Assembly (NCBI RefSeq): GCF_002574545.1
Contig: NZ_NUGT01000077.1
Span: 1-45,239 of the forward strand
DNA: 45,239 nucleotides
Direction: 5' to 3'
Source of the DNA: Bacillus sp. AFS055030
Lineage (GTDB): Bacteria > Bacillota > Bacilli > Bacillales > Bacillaceae_G
Shown: one piece after another, positions 1-25,761 of the stretch
How positions within the stretch are numbered: the first letter of the stretch is position 1
How the letters are laid out: each line of letters opens with the position of its first letter
The notes under the pieces: generated by a model
Seen by the model: the letters and a program-made list of their open reading frames with translations, nothing else
Database searches by the model: none
Told to the model about the DNA's origin: nothing
Translations under genes and position numbers: made by a program

Positions 1-54
1 CTCTATAGGGTACATTTTATAATCGGCTCATTCTTTTTATTTTTTACTAAATAG

Positions 55-100
55 AAAAAAGGCTGCCAAAAAGTCATTGATTCCGACTTTTAGGACAGCC
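55..100 (-). terminator. intrinsic terminator of pckA
   Basis: On the minus strand a hairpin with arms GGCTGTCCTAAAAGTC and GACTTTTTGGCAGCC is followed by a run of T. It lies 20 bases after the pckA stop codon. Confidence 0.85.
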
Positions 101-120
101 CTTACATTTTTCTTTTTAGA

Positions 121-1707
121 TTATTTTAAAGGTCCACCAAGTTCAGCTAATTTAGCATCAAAGCCTTCAAATTTTTTGAAGTTTTCTTTGAATTTGTTTA
201 CTAATTCAAGAGCTTTTTGATCATAAGCTGATTTATCTTCCCATGTTGTTGATGGAACTAATACGCTATCAGGTACACCAGGTACATGAGTAGGAATTGC
301 TAAACCGAAAAACTCATCTTGTGTAGTTTCAATATTGTTTAACTCACCTTCAAGTGCAGCGTGAACCATTGCTCTTGTGTAAGATAAGTTCATACGTTTA
401 CCTACACCGTATTCTCCACCAGTCCAACCAGTGTTTACTAAGAATACATTTACATTATGTTTTTCAATTTTTTCACCAAGCATTTTTGCATATTCTACAG
501 CTGGAAGCGGTAAGAATGGTGATCCGAAACATGTAGAGAATGTTACTTGTGGAGAAGTAACGCCACGCTCAGTACCAGCTAATTTGCTTGTAAATCCGCT
601 TAAGAAATGATACATTGCTTGCTCTTTTGTTAATTTACTGATTGGAGGTAATACTCCAAATGCATCAGCAGTTAAAAAGATAATCGCTTGTGGATGTCCA
701 GCAACACTTGGCTCAATGATATTTTGAATTGCTTGCATTGGGTATGCAGCACGAGTATTTTCTGTTAAAGTTGTATCATCATAGTCAGCTAAACGGCTAT
801 CAGATTTAACAACAACATTTTCTAACACTGTACCAAATTTAATTGCAGAGAAAATTTGTGGCTCTTTTTCAAATGTTAAATTGATACATTTAGCGTAGCA
901 ACCGCCTTCAATATTAAATACACCATTATCTGACCAGCCGTGCTCATCGTCACCGATTAACTTACGGTCTGCATCTGCAGATAATGTTGTTTTACCAGTT
1001 CCTGATAATCCAAAGAATAATGCCACATCACCTTCACTACCAACGTTAGCAGAACAGTGCATTGGTAAAACATTATTTTGTGGTAATAGGAAATTCATAA
1101 TTGAGAAGATCGATTTTTTCATTTCACCAGCATATTCCGTACCACCGATTAAGATTATTTTCTTCTCAAATGATATAATAACAAATGCCTCAGAATTTGT
1201 TCCATCTACCACTGGGTCTGCTTTAAATGTAGGAGCAGAAATAATTGTAAATTCTGATTCATGAGTTTGAAGCTCTTGCTCAGTTGGGCGAATAAATAAT
1301 TGGTGAGCAAATAAGTTGTGCCATGCAAATTCGTTAATTACTTGGATTGGTAAACGATACTCAGTATCAGCGCCAGCAAATCCTTTAAATAAGAATAATT
1401 CGTTACGATCTTTTAAGTAGTTAAGTACTTTGCTATACAATTTTTCAAATACGTCAGCAGAGATTGGTTGGTTTACTGAACCCCAATCGATTAAATTTTC
1501 AACAGATGCCTCTTTAACAATAAATTTATCTTTAGGTGAACGTCCAGTATATTTACCTGTTGAAACGCTAACTGCTCCTGTTGACGTTAAAATGCCTTCT
1601 TGTCTTGTTAAAACTTTTTCAACTAATTCAGAAACGCTTAGTTGGTTATACATTTGATTACTAGTAAGTAATTCGTTTAATTCAAAGTTTACATCAACTG
1701 TCTTCAT
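121..1707 (-). CDS. pckA: phosphoenolpyruvate carboxykinase (ATP)
   Basis: Cytosolic gluconeogenic enzyme that converts oxaloacetate and ATP to phosphoenolpyruvate, CO2 and ADP. The 528-residue product has the usual family length. The kinase P-loop GLSGTGKTT is at about residues 233-241 and the metal/nucleotide segment GDDEHGW at 252-258; EYRLP and YTGRSP match the substrate-binding parts of ATP-type enzymes. The ATG follows an AAAGGATG ribosome site. The gene diverges from metK, an arrangement shared with the B. subtilis region, and ends in a strong terminator. A CcpN-like site overlaps its probable -10, so glycolytic repression is inferred. Confidence 0.98.
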
Positions 1708-1763
1708 ATACTAATACCATCCTTTAAATATAATTTGTCTGCCATGTAGGTATCTCGATAAAT

Positions 1764-1817
1764 AGTATAACACATTTATTTTAATAGTGTATACTATTAG
1801 TTCGCAAAATGTGTTAT
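1764..1817 (-). promoter_or_regulatory. pckA promoter with paired CcpN-like sites
   Basis: On the minus strand TGTGTTATACT (1774 to 1764) matches the CcpN consensus TRTGHYATAYW, as I remember it, at all positions and contains the likely -10 TATACT. A second, inverted partial match, TGTGTTAT, lies on the plus strand at 1810-1817. Between them is the palindrome AATAGTGTATACTATT. No good -35 is visible. In B. subtilis CcpN represses pckA; regulation here is inferred. Confidence 0.5.
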
Positions 1818-1972
1818 GAATTTGATTAAAAAATTAATTTGAGTAAAATATACTTAATCTAAAGAAGAAATTTAGTAAATTGTAAGATAATAATTAGTAA
1901 TTTCCCTTTAAATAGAAATGAATGTAGAAATTAAATTATTGTAGAATTATGTCTAAGTAAGTATGAAAATTG

Positions 1973-2001
1973 TTGACAAGAAAGTGAAATTTTAATATGA
2001 T
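1973..2001 (+). promoter_or_regulatory. metK promoter
   Basis: TTGACA (1973-1978) and TATGAT (1996-2001) are separated by 17 bases, a near-consensus SigA promoter. The expected start point is near 2008, just before the SAM riboswitch. Confidence 0.8.
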
Positions 2002-2017
2002 ACTTTTCATACGGATA

Positions 2018-2199
2018 CTCTCTTATCCCGAGTAGGTGGAGGGATACAGGCCCTACGAAGCCCAGCAACCTCACTTTTAGTGAAAGGTGCTGAACCTGAT
2101 GCAAGACATTTTTTTATGTCTTGGACGATAAGAGCGAAAGGCAAATAACCAAGAACCCTTTCCTCATGTAATATTTGATAAGAGGAAGGCTTTTTTTTT
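2018..2199 (+). ncRNA. SAM-I (S-box) riboswitch with terminator
   Basis: The core has the canonical S-box sequences (GAGGGATACAGGCCC-like, GCAACC, GGTGC, ACGATAAGAG). P1 pairs CTCTTATC (2020-2027) with GATAAGAG (2127-2134). The terminator pairs 2158-2165 with 2182-2189 and is followed by nine T. The alternative antiterminator pairs GAG and GAAAGG (2132-2141) with CCTTTCCTC (2157-2165). SAM binding would hold P1 together and let the terminator form, shutting off metK. Confidence 0.97.
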
Positions 2200-2343
2200 G
2201 CTCAAAACTTAAATACAGTGGCAATTTCGTAATTTACACTGAGTTATCTTTATCTTAAATGGGAAACATAGGAATAGGAACAAACTTTTTATTCTTATGT
2301 TGAGAAAAAAGAGATCCGTCAATTCAATTTAGGAGGGGACTCA

Positions 2344-3540
2344 ATGTCACAACGTCGTTTATTTACTTCAGAATCAGTTACAGAAGGACATCCAGATAAA
2401 ATCTGTGACCAAATTTCAGATTCTATTCTTGATGCAATTTTAGCAAATGATCCGAATGCTCGTGTAGCAGCGGAAACTTCAGTTACAACAGGTTTAGTAC
2501 TTGTTGCAGGTGAAATTACAACTTCTACTTATGTAGATATCCCAAAAATCGTTCGCGAAACTATCCGTGAAATCGGTTATGACCGTGCAAAATACGGATT
2601 TGATGCAGATACATGTGCAGTTTTAACTTCTATCGATGAGCAATCAGCAGATATCGCTCTAGGTGTAGACCAAGCGTTAGAAGCTCGTGAAGGTAGTATG
2701 ACAGATGAAGAAATTGAAGCAATCGGTGCAGGAGACCAAGGTTTAATGTTCGGTTTTGCTGTAAATGAAACACCTGAATTAATGCCACTTCCAATTTCAT
2801 TATCACACAAAATTGCTCGCCGCTTAACTGAAGTTAGAAAAAATGAAACAGTTTCTTACTTACGTCCAGACGGTAAAACTCAAGTAACAGTTGAGTATGA
2901 TGAAAACAACAAACCAGTTCGTATTGATGCAATTGTTGTATCAACACAACATGGTCCAGAAGCTACTCAAGAACAAATTGAAAATGATATTAAAGAACTT
3001 GTAATTAAACCAGTAGTACCAGCTGAGTTAATTGATGAAAACACAAAATTCTTTATCAACCCAACAGGTCGTTTCGTAATCGGTGGACCTCAAGGGGATG
3101 CTGGTTTAACAGGTCGTAAAATTATTGTTGATACTTACGGTGGATATGCTCGTCACGGTGGTGGCGCATTCTCTGGTAAAGATGCAACTAAAGTTGACCG
3201 TTCTGCTGCTTATGCTGCACGTTACGTTGCGAAAAACATCGTAGCTGCTGGCTTAGCTGATAAAGCTGAAGTTCAATTAGCATATGCAATTGGTGTAGCT
3301 AAACCAGTTTCGATCGCGATTGATACTTTTGGTACAGGTAAAGTTTCAGAAGAAAAATTAGTTGAAGTAATTCGCAACAACTTCGATCTACGTCCAGCAG
3401 GAATTATTAAAATGCTTGACCTACGTCGTCCGATTTACAAACAAACTGCTGCTTATGGTCACTTTGGCCGTACAGATATCGATCTTCCTTGGGAGCGTAC
3501 TGATAAAGCAGAAGTTTTAAAAACTGAAGCAGGTCTATAA
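2344..3540 (+). CDS. metK: S-adenosylmethionine synthetase
   Basis: Makes S-adenosylmethionine from methionine and ATP in the cytosol, normally as a tetramer. The 398-residue product has the family signatures: [14 protein letters not shown] near the N-terminus, [10 protein letters not shown] in the middle (around residue 125) and [19 protein letters not shown] near residue 265. The ATG follows AGGAGGGGA with good spacing. Transcription passes through a SAM riboswitch, so the product should control its own synthesis. A hairpin terminator follows. Its SAM also feeds the speD pathway encoded about 10 kb away. Confidence 0.99.
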
Positions 3541-3552
3541 TAAAATGATTAA

Positions 3553-3588
3553 GGCTGAATATGGCATTTGCTATATTCAGTCTTTTTT
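3553..3588 (+). terminator. intrinsic terminator of metK
   Basis: GGCTGAATAT and ATATTCAGTC form a 10-bp stem, with one G-T pair, followed by TTTTTT. Confidence 0.9.
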
Positions 3589-3691
3589 GTTTTAGTTAGA
3601 ATCACGCTGTTTTATTCTACATATAGGTATACTTAAAAATCATTTTTCATAGGTTTAAATGACTAAATTAAAGTTAGTAATGGAGGAACCT

Positions 3692-4672
3692 ATGAAAGCG
3701 ATTATATGTACAAAATATGGTCCACCAGAAGTTCTTCAAATAGCAGAAGTTGAAAAACCAAAAATAAAAGATAATGAAGTATTAATTAAAATACACGCAA
3801 CAACTGTAACCGCGGGAGATGTAAAACTTAGAAGTTCCGATTTTCCATTTATGTATTGGCTGCTTTCACGTCTTATGTTTGGTCTTTCTAAGCCAAAAAA
3901 TAAAATACCAGGTTGTGAGCTTGCTGGAGAAATAGTGACTGTTGGCAAAAATGTAAGAAAGTTTAAACCAGGTGATCAAGTTTTTGGTTATAGTGGATTT
4001 ACTTTTGGGGCTAATGCCGAATATATAGCTTTACATGAGGAAAGTGTTCTAGCTAAAAAACCAATAAATATGTCGTTTGAGCAAGCGGCAGCAGTACCGG
4101 TTGGGGCGCTTACTGCATTACACTTCTTAAGAAGAAGTATTATACAAAATGGACAAAAAGTACTTATTTATGGTGCTTCAGGAAGTGTTGGAACATATGC
4201 AATTCAGCTAGCTAAATATTTTGGTACTGAAGTTACCGCATTATGTAGTACATCTAATTTAGAAATGGTAAAGACTTTAGGCGCAAATGAAGTAATTGAT
4301 TATACAAATGAAGATCTTTCTAAAAGTAAGAAGACATATGATATTATTTTTGATACAGTAGGCAAAAGTTCGTTTTCTAATTGTAGAACATTGCTAAACA
4401 AAGATGGCGTCTATTTATTAAGTGCAGTTTGGAAGCTTTCGGTGTATTTTCAAGCATTATGGAGTAATTTGATTAGCCATAAAAAAACGATACTTGGTGT
4501 GGCAAATATGAACAAAGAAGATTTAAACTATATAAAAGCACTTATTGAAGCGGATAAGTTAAAAGCGGTTATTGACCGACAGTACACACTTGATCAAATT
4601 GTTGAGGCCCATCGTTACGTAGAAAAAGGGCATAAGAAGGGGAATGTCGTTATTAACATTCGGGGGAACTGA
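3692..4672 (+). CDS. zinc-free medium-chain NAD(P)-dependent dehydrogenase / quinone oxidoreductase-like
   Basis: Member of the medium-chain dehydrogenase/reductase superfamily, 326 residues. A GroES-like N-terminal domain is followed by a Rossmann domain with GASGSVG at residues 161-167. The cysteine cluster of the structural zinc site is absent, which places it with the quinone oxidoreductase-like branch; the substrate cannot be read. An in-frame upstream ATG at 3659 has no ribosome site, whereas TGGAGGAACCT precedes the ATG at 3692 and the sequence MKAIICTKYGPPEVL is a typical family start. It stands alone between terminators. Confidence 0.85.
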   Translation: MKAIICTKYGPPEVLQIAEVEKPKIKDNEVLIKIHATTVTAGDVKLRSSDFPFMYWLLSRLMFGLSKPKNKIPGCELAGEIVTVGKNVRKFKPGDQVFGYSGFTFGANAEYIALHEESVLAKKPINMSFEQAAAVPVGALTALHFLRRSIIQNGQKVLIYGASGSVGTYAIQLAKYFGTEVTALCSTSNLEMVKTLGANEVIDYTNEDLSKSKKTYDIIFDTVGKSSFSNCRTLLNKDGVYLLSAVWKLSVYFQALWSNLISHKKTILGVANMNKEDLNYIKALIEADKLKAVIDRQYTLDQIVEAHRYVEKGHKKGNVVINIRGN

Positions 4673-6668: not shown

Positions 6669-6693
6669 CTTTTTATATAACAACATAAAAAAA

Positions 6694-6805
6694 TGTATAA
6701 CCTCATTGATATGGTATGAGGGTCTCTACCAGGAACCGTAAAATCCTGATTACGAAAAAGAATGTAATTTTATTTACATCCTTCTTCGTAATCAGGATTT
6801 TTTTT
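6694..6805 (+). ncRNA. purine riboswitch, adenine type, pbuE-like ON switch
   Basis: The aptamer has P2 CCTCAT/ATGAGG with loop TGATATGG, J2/3 GTCTCTACC, P3 CAGGA/TCCTG with loop ACCGTAAAA, and a short P1 (6694-6697 with 6751-6754). The specificity base before the 3' P1 strand is T (6750, equivalent to U74), which predicts adenine rather than guanine. A 17-bp terminator pairs 6740-6756 with 6785-6801 and is followed by T. Its 5' arm consists of the P3 and P1 3' strands, so adenine binding should prevent termination and switch the gene on. Confidence 0.93.
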
Positions 6806-6869: not shown

Positions 6870-8177
6870 ATGAAAACAGTCTATATAAATGCAACTTTTT
6901 TTACAATGGATCAAGATAATAATATCTTTGAAGAAGGTATGATGATTGTACAAGATCAAACGATTACCTATGTTGGAAATCATTCTGAAGAGCTAATGAA
7001 AAATGCAGATCAAGTAGTTAATCTTCAAGGAAAATGGGTAATGCCAGGATTTGTAAATACACATACTCATATTCTTATGACGCTTTTACGTGGTATTGGC
7101 GATGACATGCTGCTGAAGCCTTGGTTAGAAACTAAAATATGGCCAATCGAAAGACAATATACAACAGAAATTGCTTCAGTAAGTGCACAACTAGGTATTT
7201 TAGAAATGGTTAAGTCAGGAACGACAACATTTTCAGATATGTTTAACCCGAATGGACTCGATCCAAATGTTGTCATGGAGACGATTGGTGAAACTGGAAT
7301 TAGAGGAGCATTTTCATATTCAATATTTAGCTTTGGAACGGAAGAAGAACAAAGATTGAATCTGAAAGGTGCTGAGCAATTTTCAAAAGACTATAAACTG
7401 TTTGCTGACGGCCGTTTAACAACGATGGTTGCACCTCATAGTCCTTACGCTTGTACACCAAAAGCACTAATCGAAAGTTCACGTATTGCAAAAGAAAATG
7501 ATTTAATGATGCATATACATGTATCTGAAACAGACTATGAAATTCAAGATATAAAAGCTCGTTATTCAAACCGTCCTGTAGAACATCTTTGCAAATTAGG
7601 AGTATTTGATCAGCCGACAGTAATGGCTCACGGTGTAGTTCTAAATGATGAAGAAAGAGCGATCCTAAAAGAATATGATGTACGAGTTGCTCATAATCCA
7701 ATAAGTAATTTGAAGTTAGGTTCTGGAGTTGCTGATGTGGTTAGTTTATTAGACGCAGGAGTAAAAGTAGGGATCGCAACGGATAGCACAGCATCTAATA
7801 ACAATCTTGACATGTTTGAAGAAGTAAGAATAGCAGCATTGCTACAAAAGGGAATGTATAAAGATGCTACAAAATTCTCAGCGCAAACTGCATTAACTTT
7901 AGCTACACGAGGTGGCGCAGAAGCAATAGGAATGGGGCATACTGGCTCACTAGAAGCCAATAAAAAGGCAGACTTTATTACAATTTATCCATTTGATAAA
8001 GAGCATTTACAACCATTAAGTAATGCTTATTCACACTTACTATACGCTGCACGTGGAAGCGATGTATGTGATGTTTATATTGATGGGAAACAAATCGTAA
8101 AAGACCGCATTAGTCTAACAATTGACGAAGAAAAAGTAATCGCAGAAGTAAATCGATTACAAAGTAGATTTGCTTAA
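6870..8177 (+). CDS. mtaD: MtaD/SsnA-type amidohydrolase: 5'-methylthioadenosine/S-adenosylhomocysteine deaminase
   Basis: Zinc amidohydrolase of 435 residues that would deaminate adenine-containing nucleosides. Visible ligands and catalytic residues are the metal pair His65 and His67 in NTHTH, His217 and Glu220 in HIHVSE, His254 in MAHGVV and Asp305 in ATDSTASNNNLDMFEE, the pattern of characterised MTA/SAH deaminases. The start is preceded by AGGAGG. Expression is predicted to rise with adenine through the riboswitch just upstream. A related specificity, such as adenosine, cannot be excluded. The gene is followed by a hairpin terminator. Confidence 0.88.
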   Translation: MKTVYINATFFTMDQDNNIFEEGMMIVQDQTITYVGNHSEELMKNADQVVNLQGKWVMPGFVNTHTHILMTLLRGIGDDMLLKPWLETKIWPIERQYTTEIASVSAQLGILEMVKSGTTTFSDMFNPNGLDPNVVMETIGETGIRGAFSYSIFSFGTEEEQRLNLKGAEQFSKDYKLFADGRLTTMVAPHSPYACTPKALIESSRIAKENDLMMHIHVSETDYEIQDIKARYSNRPVEHLCKLGVFDQPTVMAHGVVLNDEERAILKEYDVRVAHNPISNLKLGSGVADVVSLLDAGVKVGIATDSTASNNNLDMFEEVRIAALLQKGMYKDATKFSAQTALTLATRGGAEAIGMGHTGSLEANKKADFITIYPFDKEHLQPLSNAYSHLLYAARGSDVCDVYIDGKQIVKDRISLTIDEEKVIAEVNRLQSRFA

Positions 8178-10736: not shown

Positions 10737-10759
10737 AAAAAACCAGCACAATGCTGGTT
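10737..10759 (-). terminator. terminator of speD-speA/speE operon
   Basis: On the minus strand AACCAGCA and TGCTGGTT form a perfect hairpin followed by a T run, 8 bases after the stop codon. Confidence 0.85.
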
Positions 10760-10766
10760 TTATGAC

Positions 10767-13097
10767 TTACTCTTCATTATCTAATTGTTTTTTTACATAA
10801 GTAGGGAGCATAAAGCACCCAACATGTAGGTCTGTATTATAATATTTTGTTTCGATTCCTAACTTATTCCATTCATCGGCTTTAATGTCTTTAATTGGGT
10901 CGTATTTTTTTGAAGCAAAACCGAATAACCAATGTCCAGATGGATAAGTTGGCATATGGAATTGATAAACTCTTGAGATCGGAAAAGTTTCTTTAATTTT
11001 GGAATGAGCACGTTTCATTTCATGTGCGTAACTAGCGTAATATGGACTTTCATGCTGGTTAATTAATATACCTTCTTCACTTAATACTCGTTTGCAATTG
11101 TTATAAAAAGCAACTGTAAAAAGTCCTTCACCAGGTCCAATCGGATCAGTTGAATCTACCAAAATTAGATCGTAATAACCTTCATCAGCTTCTTGTACGA
11201 ACTTTAGTCCATCTTCAAAATATAATGTTAATCGATTATCTTGATCTAATTTAGAAGCTGTTAAAGGTAAGTATTGTTGGCATAGTCTAACTACTCGCTC
11301 ATCAATTTCTACCATATCAACAACTTCCACACCTGGATAACGTAGTACTTCACGAGCAGTACCACCATCACCCCCACCGATAATTAGCACTTTTTTTATG
11401 GTTGGATTAACAGCCATTGATACATGCGTTATCATATCGTGGTAGATAAACTCATCCTTTTCAGTCACCATCATATAACCATCAAGAGTAAAGAATGTTC
11501 CAAATGTTTCACTTCTAAAGAAATCGATTTGTTGAAACTCACTTTTTTCAGAATGAATATGTTCTTGAACCTTTATGGAAAACTTCGTATCTTCTTGGTG
11601 ATTCTCCGTATACCATAAATCCATTAAATTTTCCTCCAAACTTCGATCGACGACTTTTATTATATAAGGATCGTCATCATCGTTGATTGTGATCGTTCCT
11701 TCTTCTTTTAAATAAAGATAATGCTGAATCAATTCTGTAGAAATTAGTTCACCAGGTATACAAAGAGGGATACCAGGAGGGTAAATCATGATTGATTCAC
11801 CACTAATTAATCCACTAGCATCATGAATTGAAATAATACGTTTTGGATGATAGTACGCCTCTCTAGGAGTCATGACCATTTTAGGGTTTTTTAATGCAAC
11901 ACTTATATCTGTATCAAGTTTTGGAAGTTTACCGTAATATCGGTCACTAATATCTCTTAAGGCATCAATTAATGTTTGAATGGTCTGTTCATTATCACCT
12001 AGCGAGATAATTGCTAAAATGACATTCGGTTCGGCAAGTTCGATTTGAATTTTATATTCTTCTGCAAGCATGTCGTATACTTTAAAACCAGACATTCCTA
12101 ATTCTGAAACTTTAACAACGAGTTTTAACTCATCGTAATCGAATACCCCAACTCCATTTTGATATGAATCTCGCGTAATACATTTTAATCCTTTTATGGA
12201 ATTAATTTCTTTTTTAGCTTTTCTCGTTAAATTGAGTAATTTTTCGAATCGCTCATGTCCTTCTAAAACTAATTTCTTTCTTGCAACATCAATAGAACAC
12301 ATAAGTAAATAGGAAGCAGATGTTGTTTGAAATAAATTAATGGTAGATCGGACCCTATTTTTAGTAATGATCCCATCATTATGTAGTAGAACGGATGCTT
12401 GTGTTAAGGCACCACCAGTTTTATGCAAACTAAGGGTAACAAGGTCAGCACCAAGAAGGGCAGCATTAGTTGGTAAATCAGGGTGAAACGAAAAGTGAGC
12501 ACCATGGGCTTGGTCTACTAAAACAGGAATCCCCCTAGAATGACCGATGTCGATAATTTGTTTTAAATCTGAAGTTGCTCCAAAATAAGTTGGATTTATA
12601 ATAAGGATGGCTTTAACATCCGAATTTAAATCTAGGGCATGGAGAACAGATTTTACTGAAACGCCATTTACAATTCCATACTCATAATCGATTTCTGGTT
12701 CGATAAATACTGGTTTAGCACCCGCTAAGATTAATGCATTGATTGCGGATTTATGTACATTCCTTGGCAGGAGAATTTTATCTCCTTGTTCAAGTGCGCT
12801 CATAATCATATATTGAACACCAGAAGTCGAACCATTTACTAACATATAAGCGTTATCTGAATGAAAGGCATCGGCTAATAAAGTTTCGGCTTCTTGGATG
12901 ACACCAGTTGGATGCGATAAGTTATCAACACGCTTTGAAGAATTGACATCCATTTTAAGAGCCATATCACTCCAAAGCTCTCTTAATTCCTCGAGTGAAT
13001 TACCTCTTTTATGCCCGGGAACATCAAAGCTTGTAATATCTTCCTTAGCATAACGGACTAATTCAGTTAAAAGCGGTGTTTTACTATGATCCATCAT
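10767..13097 (-). CDS. speA-speE: arginine decarboxylase-spermidine synthase fusion (SpeA-SpeE)
   Basis: A 776-residue single frame joining two polyamine enzymes. Residues 1 to about 486 are an aspartate-aminotransferase-fold PLP decarboxylase of the B. subtilis SpeA/YaaO type: FDVPGHKRG at 24-32, VDQAHGAH at 194-201, PLP lysine K226 in SLHKT, and the usual C-terminal [11 protein letters not shown]. Residues 492-776 are a complete spermidine synthase: LWYTE start, SAM-binding GGGDGG at 574-579, catalytic Asp648 in VDSTDPIGP and TYPSG at 717-721. The junction codes for SLEENL and is itself a ribosome site plus ATG. The first ATG overlaps the speD stop by 4 bases. Lysine or ornithine specificity of the first domain is not excluded. 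A sequencing error at a lost stop codon must be considered. Confidence 0.93.
11622..11637 (-). promoter_or_regulatory. internal ribosome-binding site and ATG at the SpeE domain start
   Basis: On the minus strand GGAGGA (11637-11632) lies 7 bases before an ATG (11624) that encodes Met492, exactly where free SpeE proteins begin. This could allow separate synthesis of the spermidine synthase. Confidence 0.75.
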
Positions 13098-13930
13098 CCA
13101 TCAATATCCTCCGCATCAGGACCATTCCATAAATTTTTACCGTAAAAGATTTCATCCATCTCATACTTCACTTTTTCTTCTATTTGTGAAATTTCATCCG
13201 CGTCTAATTTATCTTTTGTGTAGCCAAAAAGATAATTATCTAAATTAAATTGTTTCAACTTACATTTCGTATGAAAAATATTTTCTTGAAACACATTCAC
13301 ATCAATCATTTGATACATATCCTTTATTTTTTGAGGAATGTAATTTTGAATTGAGTTTATATCATGATCAATAAATAATTTATAACCACTAACATCACGA
13401 GTAAATCCGCGAACACGATAATCAATTGTCATTATATCGGCATCAAATTGATGAATTAAATAATTTAAAGCTTTTAAAGGAGAAATTTCTCCACAAGTAG
13501 ATACGTCGATGTCTGCTCTGAACGTACTAATTCCATCATCCGGATGATATTCTGGGTAAGTATGGACAGTAATATGACTTTTATCTAATGCTGCAACTAC
13601 TAGTTCCGGTAATGGACCAGGTGATTCGGAAAAAGTTTCAGATGAAGGGTTATCAACCGGACCTTCTGAAACGAGAATTGTAACGCTTGCTCCTTGAGGA
13701 TCGTAATCTTGTTTTGCAATATTTAAAATGTGAGCTCCAATGATATGTGTAACCTCGGTTAAAATTTTTGTTAAACGATCAGCATTATATTGTTCATCGA
13801 TGTACTGAATATAAGCTTCACGTTCTTCTTTCGTTTTTGTAAAGCAAATATCATACATATTAAAACTTAAAGATTTCGTTAAGTTATTAAAACCATAGAG
13901 TTGAAAATTATTTGACGATGAAATATTCAT
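13094..13930 (-). CDS. speD: S-adenosylmethionine decarboxylase proenzyme, class 1A (E. coli type)
   Basis: Pyruvoyl enzyme that decarboxylates SAM to the aminopropyl donor for spermidine. The 278-residue proenzyme has the self-cleavage site LDK-SHI at Lys117/Ser118, HTYPE at 123-127 and Cys146 in [17 protein letters not shown]. This matches the long E. coli-type enzyme, unlike the short class 1B form of B. subtilis. The ATG follows TAGGAGGACATTAG. It is the first gene of a two-gene operon and overlaps the SpeA-SpeE start by 4 bases, so translation is probably coupled. No agmatinase gene is present nearby. Confidence 0.96.
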
Positions 13931-13970: not shown

Positions 13971-14002
13971 GAAAAAGTAAAAGCGACCGTACAATAGTCG
14001 CT
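13971..14002 (-). terminator. hairpin with T tract in the speD leader
   Basis: On the minus strand AGCGAC and GTCGCT form a hairpin with a 9-base loop, followed by TTTTACTTTTT. It could terminate transcripts from the PAP2 gene or act as an attenuator before speD. Confidence 0.5.
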
Positions 14003-23039: not shown

Positions 23040-23288
23040 AATCTAAATGATCGGCTATGATTGGGAATAGTAGTGAATATGAAGAGGTTTAGAGAGTTGA
23101 CGGTTGGTGAAAGTCAATCCATTCTATTCATGAACTCGCCCATAAGCCACATTTGTGAACGGTTTTAACCAAGTAATAAATGTCGTGTTCCACGTTACGG
23201 AAACAAGTGAATGTATTTTTACATTAATTTGGGTGGTACCGCGGGAAATCCTCTCGTCCCTTTTGGGATGGGAGGATTTTTTTTATTG
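23040..23288 (+). ncRNA. T-box leader, tRNA-Leu (CUC specifier)
   Basis: Stem I contains the GAGAG and GGTTGGTGAAAG elements. Its internal loop has AATAGTA on one side and GAACTCG on the other, between helices GTGAATA/TATTCAT and GGG/CCC, so the specifier is CTC (23135-23137, Leu). The T-box TGGGTGGTACCGCGG is at 23230-23244; its UGGU fits tRNA-Leu with discriminator A. The terminator pairs AATCCTCtCGTCCC with GGGAtGgGAGGATT (23248-23280), then T. Uncharged tRNA-Leu should allow leuS expression. Confidence 0.97.
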
Positions 23289-23343
23289 TAGACCGTTAGG
23301 ACCACAGCCGAGCCATTTATATATGAAAAAAGGAGGCAATAAA

Positions 23344-25761
23344 ATGAGTTTTAATCATCGTACTATTGAACAGAAATGGCAGAAGTATTGGTTAGAAAAT
23401 AAAACATTTAAAACAACTGACGATACAAGCAAGCCGAAATTTTATGCACTTGATATGTTCCCTTATCCATCTGGAGCGGGATTACATGTTGGGCATCCAG
23501 AAGGGTACACAGCTACAGATATTCTTTCAAGAATGAAAAGAATGCAGGGCTATAATGTACTTCATCCAATGGGGTGGGATGCATTTGGTCTTCCAGCAGA
23601 ACAATATGCATTAGATACAGGTAATGATCCAGCTGAGTTTACTGAAAAGAATATTAATACTTTCCGTAATCAAATTCAGGCACTTGGATTCTCATACGAT
23701 TGGGATCGTGAAGTAAATACAACTGATCCTAATTATTACAAATGGACTCAATGGATTTTCCTAAGAATGGTTGAAAAAGGATTAGCTTATGTAGATGAAA
23801 TTCCAGTAAACTGGTGCCCAGCACTTGGTACAGTTTTAGCTAATGAAGAAGTAATCGATGGTAAAAGTGAGCGTGGAGGACATCCAGTTGAGCGTCGTCC
23901 GATGAAGCAATGGATCTTAAAAATCACGGCTTATGCGGATAGATTATTAGAAGATCTAGAAGAATTAGATTGGCCTGAAAGCTTAAAAGAAATGCAACGT
24001 AACTGGATCGGCCGTTCGGAAGGTGCTGAAGTTTACTTTAATGTTGATGGATTCGATGAAAAAGTTACAGTATTTACAACGCGTCCAGATACATTATTCG
24101 GTGCAACTTATGTTGTATTAGCTCCAGAACATGCTTTAGTTAATAAAATTACAACAGCTAATCAAAAAGATGCAGTTGATGCTTATATCGATTCAGTTAA
24201 ATCGAAAAGTGATTTAGAAAGAACTGATTTAGCGAAGGATAAAACAGGTGTTTTCACAGGAGCATATGCAATTAATCCTGTAAATAATGAAAAGCTTCCA
24301 ATTTGGATTGCTGATTATGTTCTTGCAAGCTATGGAACTGGTGCAGTTATGGCAGTACCAGGACATGATGAGCGCGACCATGAATTTGCAGTTAAATTTA
24401 ATTTACCAATCATTGAGGTTGTTGAAGGTGGAGACGTTCAAAAAGAGGCTTACGCTGGAGATGGCAAACATGTTAACTCTGATTTCTTAAACGGTTTAAA
24501 TAAAGAAGAAGCACTTGAAAAAATTATCGAATGGTTAGAATCTTCAAATGCAGGTGAGAAAAAAGTTACGTATCGTCTACGTGATTGGTTATTCTCTCGC
24601 CAAAGATATTGGGGAGAGCCAATTCCAGTAATTTTCTGGGAAGATGGTACAATGACAGTTGTTCCTGATGAGGAATTACCATTAATTCTTCCGAAAACAG
24701 AAGATATTCGTCCAAGTGGTACTGGAGAGTCACCATTAGCGAATATTGATGATTGGGTTAATGTAGTTGATCCAGTAACAGGTAAAAAAGGAAGACGTGA
24801 AACAAATACAATGCCACAATGGGGCGGAAGCTGTTGGTATTACTTACGTTATATTGATCCAAATAATAACGAAGCAATCGCAGATTCTGAATTATTAAAG
24901 CATTGGTTACCAGTAGATGTTTATATTGGAGGAGCAGAGCATGCAGTTCTTCACTTACTATACGCTCGTTTCTGGCATAAATTCCTTTATGATTTAGGTG
25001 TAGTTCCTACAAAAGAGCCATTCCAAAAGCTTTTCAACCAAGGAATGATCTTAGGGGAAAATAATGAAAAAATGTCTAAGTCTAAAGGAAACGTTGTAAA
25101 TCCTGATGATATCGTTAATAGCCACGGTGCTGATACATTACGTTTATATGAAATGTTCATGGGTCCATTAGATGCATCTATCGCTTGGTCAGAAAATGGA
25201 TTAGATGGTTCTCGTCGATTCTTAGACCGAGTATGGCGTTTATTTGTAACTGATAATGGAGAGCTTTCAGATAAAATTGTTGAAGGCATTACTTCTAGCA
25301 GTCTTGAAAAAACATATCACCAAACGGTAAAGAAAGTAACAGAGGACTTTGAAGGTTTACGTTTTAACACTGCAATTTCACAAATGATGGTGTTTATTAA
25401 CGAAGCATATAAAGCTGACCAATTACCAAAAGAAATGGTTGAAGGTTTCGTAAAATTAATCGCACCAGTTGCACCTCATATCGGTGAAGAACTTTGGAGT
25501 AAACTTGGGGCTAGTGATTCAATTGCATATGCTACATGGCCAGCATACGATGAAGCTAAACTTGTAGAAGACGAAATTGAAATTGTAGTACAAATTAATG
25601 GTAAAGTAAAAGCAAAATTACGTGTTGCAAAAGATGCTTCTCGTGAGCAAATGGAGCAAATTGCATTATCAGACGACGCAGTTAAGGAACAAGTTGAAGG
25701 CAAAACTGTTCGAAAAATCATTGCTGTACCAGGTAAATTAGTCAATATCGTTGCGAACTAA
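23344..25761 (+). CDS. leuS: leucyl-tRNA synthetase
   Basis: Class I synthetase that charges tRNA-Leu; 805 residues, the normal bacterial length. HVGH at 48-51 is the HIGH motif and KMSKS is at 576-580. The editing domain ([14 protein letters not shown], near 243) and the C-terminal anticodon and tRNA-binding parts are complete. The frame is open back to 23155 within the T-box, but AAAGGAGG before the ATG at 23344 and the start [16 protein letters not shown] fix the true start. It is controlled by the upstream T-box and ends in a terminator. Confidence 0.99.

Follow-up and report, generated by a model that had tools for sequence, protein, structure and literature searches.

The window analysed here is a stretch of 45,239 nucleotides from Bacillus sp. 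AFS055030, whose genome we counted as Gottfriedia. It contains a 776-codon frame that starts with ATG and has no internal stops (Table 1). A sequence-only reading of the window had reported this frame and was silent on its strand; it lies on the minus strand. Pfam domains OKR_DC_1 (residues 7-370) and OKR_DC_1_C (400-465) are found in its decarboxylase half, followed by Spermine_synt_N (494-546) and Spermine_synth (549-731) in its spermidine synthase (SpeE) half. The residue numbers given in that reading were confirmed by alignments. Lys226 is located in the motif SLHKTGG, and Asp648, which we take to be the catalytic aspartate of the SpeE half, is located in VDSTDP. The SpeE half is complete. 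Both spermine/spermidine synthase domains, the GGGDGG motif and VDSTDP are present, and the curated models NF002010 (379.5 bits, cut-off 260) and TIGR00417 (290.1 bits, cut-off 249.55) in NCBIfam are passed.

The junction between the two halves reads AGT TTG GAG GAA AAT TTA ATG, as described before. It places a GGAGGA Shine-Dalgarno sequence ahead of Met492, with a spacer of 7 nt. In an alignment with the SpeE chain of B. subtilis (1iy9), residue 493 of the fusion pairs with residue 2, so that a product started at the internal ATG would equal a whole SpeE. A structure model of the fusion was built with 77 window and locus sequences. Its mean pLDDT is 88.4 and its pTM is 0.66, and residues 489-492 are below 50. 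In the model, the fusion is composed of two folded halves joined by a loose link at residues 489-492. A structure look-up aligned the model to solved decarboxylases and solved spermidine synthases, which confirmed both folds.

The gene speD is located upstream of the fusion in the window. The Shine-Dalgarno sequence of the fusion is found inside the end of speD in most, though not all, of the 15 fused loci examined. The terminator-like hairpin ahead of speD may be either the end of the upstream gene or an attenuator in the speD leader. Other polyamine genes in the window genome include a speA-like gene (C20), a yaaO-like gene before tmk (C24), a speE-speB pair (C3) and a second, small speD. 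The fused unit is therefore additional to the usual set.

Table 1. Features of the fusion locus in the window.
Feature	Position	Strand	Basis
Fusion frame, decarboxylase::spermidine synthase, 776 aa	10767..13097	-	ORF, translation, Pfam
Decarboxylase half, residues 7-465; PLP Lys226 codon 12422-12420	11703..13079	-	Pfam OKR_DC_1 and OKR_DC_1_C
Spermidine synthase half, residues 492-776 and stop; Asp648 codon 11156-11154	10767..11624	-	Pfam, alignment to 1iy9, NCBIfam
Internal Shine-Dalgarno GGAGGA, codons 487-489	11632..11637	-	Sequence; conservation across fused sequences
Internal start codon ATG, Met492	11622..11624	-	Sequence; conservation; alignment to the start of B. subtilis SpeE (1iy9)
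speD, S-adenosylmethionine decarboxylase, E. coli type; 4-nt overlap with the fusion start	13094..13930	-	TIGR03331 above cut-off
Shine-Dalgarno GGAGGA of the fusion gene itself, within the 3' end of speD	13107-13112	-	Sequence
Terminator-like hairpin directly past the fusion stop	10739..10761	-	Consensus match; 3 found in the region against 1.7 expected
Terminator-like hairpin, 52-72 nt ahead of speD	13982-14002	-	Consensus match

In total, 27 genomes contain the fused junction; G066 and G081 among them are nearly identical, and several are metagenome bins. Thirteen are Gottfriedia (the window genome and 12 others), and 14 are Epulopiscium-type or other Clostridia, with fusions 65-75% identical to that in the window. 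The sequence-only reading had suggested a check of related genomes for the same frame. The frame is whole and free of stops in all 13 Gottfriedia genomes (12/12 besides the window genome) and in 12 of the 14 others. In G068, one of the 14, the fusion is cut by the end of a contig. In G078 an interruption near residue 322 splits the decarboxylase half. The part before it terminates in stops, and a transposase-like gene is located past them (L189, 103-2932, minus strand). The remaining decarboxylase region is located on another contig (L188, 1-1452, plus strand), in which the SpeE half and the internal start are intact. That a sequencing or assembly error deleted a stop is practically inconceivable, because 13 Gottfriedia and 12 other genomes, each assembled separately, share the frame, the single-contig G011 among them. 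We therefore rejected sequencing error.

Among 391 evenly drawn Clostridia genomes, 14 gave a match at 1e-200 or below. Thirteen of them carry internal stops, and the only stop-free one is G060, which had been found previously. No joined full-length match was present among the matches listed for six genomes of other genera in the family and 41 genomes of other families in the order. The scan of named genomes covered the best 80 of 429 relatives, so that a rarer fusion of lower rank could be missed. Candidates for additional independent fusions in G090, G103 and G168 (frames of 808, 913 and 951 aa) proved to be separate genes with intervening stops. A phage origin was also rejected: a viral collection gave four pattern-matching stretches, none of which encodes a relative.

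Unfused decarboxylase-speE pairs are common in Clostridia and are also present in Bacilli and Synergistaceae. L055 and L056 were counted as split; L071 was left out, as its speE-like match is not downstream on the same strand. These operons, which often include speD and speB, encode the same two enzymes in the same order. They have a stop between the two genes, whereas in the window the stop is gone and the frame is continuous. We compared 66 distinct unfused junctions. The speE Shine-Dalgarno sequence is located within the upstream gene in 36 of them, as it is in the fusion. It overlaps the stop of that gene in 4 and is downstream of the stop in 22, and in the other 4 no such sequence was found. 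GTG GAG GAA TAA, followed by ATG, is a frequent arrangement. Where the signal is already inside the upstream gene, an in-frame loss of the stop leaves it in place. This is in agreement with the earlier proposal that two adjacent genes merged through loss of the upstream stop and that the start signal of speE survived. The locus L182 in G103 (1-4375, minus strand) contains, in this order, a decarboxylase gene, a small speD-like gene (157 aa), speE, a speB-like and a metK-like gene, named by sequence. A different type of speD thus separates the genes whose counterparts are joined in the window.

All 26 fused decarboxylase rows group in a single clade (SH-aLRT 99), and on this tree the decarboxylase half is of single origin. 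An operon with speD, a decarboxylase gene and speE, in this order, probably lost the stop between its last two genes once, in or near the Epulopiscium/Lachnospiraceae part of Clostridia. The result would have been a single frame encoding the decarboxylase::spermidine synthase. The Gottfriedia sequences are located among Clostridia sequences in the decarboxylase tree, with an SH-aLRT of 92 at that fork, from which we infer horizontal transfer into the genus. Gottfriedia probably acquired the unit in this direction and keeps it beside its native polyamine genes.

GGAGGA and an ATG at codon 491 or 492 are present in 65/65 fused locus records, several of which are repeats of one genome. With near-copies left out, the codon tests were carried out on 17 sequences from the 27 fused genomes (4 of the 13 Gottfriedia and 13 of the 14 others). 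The nine Gottfriedia and one other genome outside this set likewise have GGAGGA and ATG. Six different amino acids (L, Q, M, T, K and V) are encoded at codon 487, and the third base of this codon is G in 17/17, a behavior that is unique among 185 variable columns. Codon 488 is GAG in 17/17 and is the only such column among 14 invariant Glu columns, the next of which reaches 53%. The internal ATG is present in all 17, at codon 491 in nine and at codon 492 in eight. A tree of 16 sequences was built without the junction, with the fragment L188 left out. On this tree codon 487 underwent at least six amino acid changes and no third-base change. Among 131 columns with at least five amino acid changes, it is the only one with zero third-base changes, and the mean over all 774 columns is 4.9. 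When codons 487-489 were redrawn from the synonymous codons of each gene, GGAGG was expected in 1.5 sequences, compared to the 17/17 observed. Folding at the junction is below the gene mean in 16/17, a weak test with base composition uncontrolled. Together, the codon patterns indicate that the Shine-Dalgarno sequence and start codon are kept beyond the needs of the protein, and the internal start looks selected.

The fusion could instead be the sole product, with a silent internal start, and GGAGGA and the Met could be remnants, or could result from codon use and the acidic nature of the linker. Consistent with this, Glu-Glu/Asp at 488-489 is conserved at the protein level, and a start-like motif can be inherited. 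In addition, codon 488 by itself is unexceptional, as 11 of 137 invariant two-fold columns have no third-base change. However, this explanation is at odds with the fixed third base of codon 487 through repeated amino acid changes, with an ATG that moves between two codons yet is never absent, and with the excess of GGAGG. We regard it as quite improbable.

Our analysis thus favors a gene with two products. We consider it likely that a single stop loss created the fusion, that the internal start was kept, that both the fusion and free SpeE are made, and that Gottfriedia gained the gene horizontally. Selection appears to have retained the old speE ribosome site and the in-frame ATG, so that ribosomes probably make both products. 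These would be a fusion of about 87 kDa and a free SpeE of about 32 kDa from one message, the sizes being those given in the sequence-only reading. That reading had suggested that the cell could make both, which the conservation of the internal start across the fused genes strongly implies. The dual-product reading now has comparative support, at the level of sequence, across distant lineages.

The free SpeE would provide extra aminopropyltransferase or partner subunits. It could also be a needed partner that co-assembles with the fused chains and thereby keeps the oligomeric decarboxylase and the dimeric or tetrameric SpeE from cross-linking into polymers. The decarboxylase would have a changed substrate (T324L, N359V), and one particle would make and aminopropylate a diamine. 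We consider this proposal unlikely. If it is true, the strength of an internal ribosome site sets the make-up of a metabolic enzyme complex.

The internal start may also have outlived the fusion. Six free speE genes located behind speD, in genomes near the fused ones, nest inside the fused group in the speE tree, with partly weak support. They are again located inside it in a tree of speD plus speE, and an AU test, made once the pattern was apparent, rejects a topology with the fused rows kept in one group (p 6e-5). In five of the six, an ATG is found at the codon-491 position behind a GGAG-type site. In the sixth, L175, the start would be at codon 494. Most simply read, the trees would reflect a single fusion, after which two or more lines lost the decarboxylase half, with speE apparently continuing from its old start. 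GGAGGA sites are present on both sides of the decarboxylase half, which offers a possible route to its precise loss. Repeated transfer is a possible alternative origin of the nested free speE genes.

The first half had been called a SpeA-type PLP decarboxylase. The decarboxylase Pfam domains and Lys226 bear out the PLP decarboxylase, whereas the SpeA assignment is an inference, since this half forms a separate branch with fixed changes at conserved positions and reaches the cut-off of no curated NCBIfam decarboxylase model. The NCBIfam decarboxylase models match it below their cut-offs (for example, 96.1 of 968 bits), and those listed are long forms. The ancestral-form decarboxylases of the AAT fold (aADC, aODC and aLDC) described in the available text of PMC8503589 match the first half in fold, length and PLP motif. 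The fused half differs from them in its separate branch, in T324L and other fixed changes, and in the attached SpeE. According to the same text, the preferred substrate of ancestral-form enzymes may be arginine, ornithine, or both ornithine and lysine (PMC8503589), so that the name 'arginine decarboxylase' is no more than a fair guess.

Lys226 is retained in the fused decarboxylases, as are Asp195 and His198 in the six fused rows inspected. Conservation across 78 unfused and 14 Bacilli sequences defines 86 columns, of which the fused sequences keep 77 and differ in 9. Residue 324 is Leu in 26/26 fused rows and Thr in all filled unfused and Bacilli rows. Other changes include N359 to Val and E196 to Gln or Met. 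These fixed changes make arginine uncertain as the substrate. The fusion most likely decarboxylates arginine, and the SpeE half would aminopropylate putrescine or agmatine.

Alternatively, the decarboxylase half may have switched to ornithine, lysine or another amino acid, and the SpeE half may use the diamine product directly. The changes at 324, 359 and 196 are consistent with a switch, as is the preference of known ancestral-form enzymes for ornithine or for ornithine and lysine in the available text of PMC8503589. So is G064, in which neither a ureohydrolase nor an agmatine deiminase was found. However, an agmatine enzyme is present in 13 of the 14 fused genomes outside Gottfriedia (a ureohydrolase in nine, a deiminase in four), as expected if agmatine is made. 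The YaaO-type protein 2x3l also has Leu at the 324 position. We consider a switch possible but not probable.

The sequence-only reading had proposed that the fusion passes agmatine directly to its SpeE half. The product would be N1-aminopropylagmatine, which a ureohydrolase would convert to spermidine. This is reasonable, since agmatine is commonly accepted by spermidine synthases: N1-aminopropylagmatine was made by 17 of the 18 bacterial enzymes tested, in the available text of PMC11107197. The nine non-Gottfriedia fused genomes with a ureohydrolase-family gene have no agmatine deiminase, and in eight of them the gene adjoins the fusion, which is in favor of the proposal. The remaining five of the 14 speak against it. 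No ureohydrolase was found in them, and four have an agmatine deiminase; some of the fused genomes are bins, which makes an absence in them soft. The deiminase route runs via putrescine, as the available text of PMC8503589 describes it. Where it is the sole route, agmatine has to be released by the fusion and comes back to it as putrescine, which argues that direct hand-over is not the common purpose of the fusion. In the three deiminase genomes with surroundings examined, the deiminase gene is followed by a further gene, which we took for an N-carbamoylputrescine amidohydrolase by its sequence. The 13 Gottfriedia genomes each contain three to five ureohydrolase-family genes and no agmatine deiminase. 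However, no ureohydrolase gene adjoins the fusion among the window ORFs. Channelling to N1-aminopropylagmatine is therefore not established, and as the general reason for the fusion we find it doubtful.

Fusions of S-adenosylmethionine decarboxylase (AdoMetDC) with ornithine decarboxylase (ODC) are known. Two other polyamine enzyme fusions resemble the one in the window. In Fusobacterium, an aODC is likewise followed by a second polyamine-type domain, which is arginase-like and probably inactive, and the available text mentions no internal start (PMC8503589). In Ca. Pelagibacter, a decarboxylase is likewise located ahead of an aminopropyltransferase, and both halves were shown to be active; the substrate of its decarboxylase is S-adenosylmethionine rather than a basic amino acid (PMC11107197, available text). 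In-frame internal starts are described for Cas11 in a cas gene (PMC11899642) and RpnS in rpn (PMC10327210), where a long protein is accompanied by a separately translated C-terminal one. As far as the available parts of these reports describe it, the shorter protein acts as a small subunit or antidote, whereas in the window it would be a complete metabolic enzyme derived from a gene fusion. The gene thus combines two kinds known from the available texts, a polyamine enzyme fusion (PMC8503589, PMC11107197) and a gene with an in-frame internal start. A search of the literature, with few subscription journals covered and sources available in part, found no fusion of a basic amino acid decarboxylase to spermidine synthase with an internal start.

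Enzyme fusion and separate synthesis are usually viewed as alternatives, and here one lineage seems to keep both over long divergence. The fusion seems permanent, with a second half that keeps its own start, and in relatives the first half has apparently been lost with the old start still in use. This gives a natural setting in which the need of a fused enzyme for free copies can be tested. The known polyamine fusions are extended by a basic amino acid decarboxylase::spermidine synthase, and the question of agmatine channelling becomes testable.

Several regulatory elements are found elsewhere in the window, all on the plus strand. A SAM riboswitch (2020-2134) precedes a metK-like gene (2344-3540), judged by sequence, about 9 kb from the polyamine operon. 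A purine riboswitch (6673-6772) precedes a gene resembling MTA/SAH deaminases (6870-8177), which scores below the model cut-off. MTA is a by-product of SpeE. In this riboswitch, the C position of the family consensus GACUA is U, which we take to mark adenine-binding aptamers. A T-box leader (23048-23264) is located ahead of a leucyl-tRNA synthetase-like gene (23155-25761). The start of this ORF overlaps the T-box, so that the true start is probably further in.
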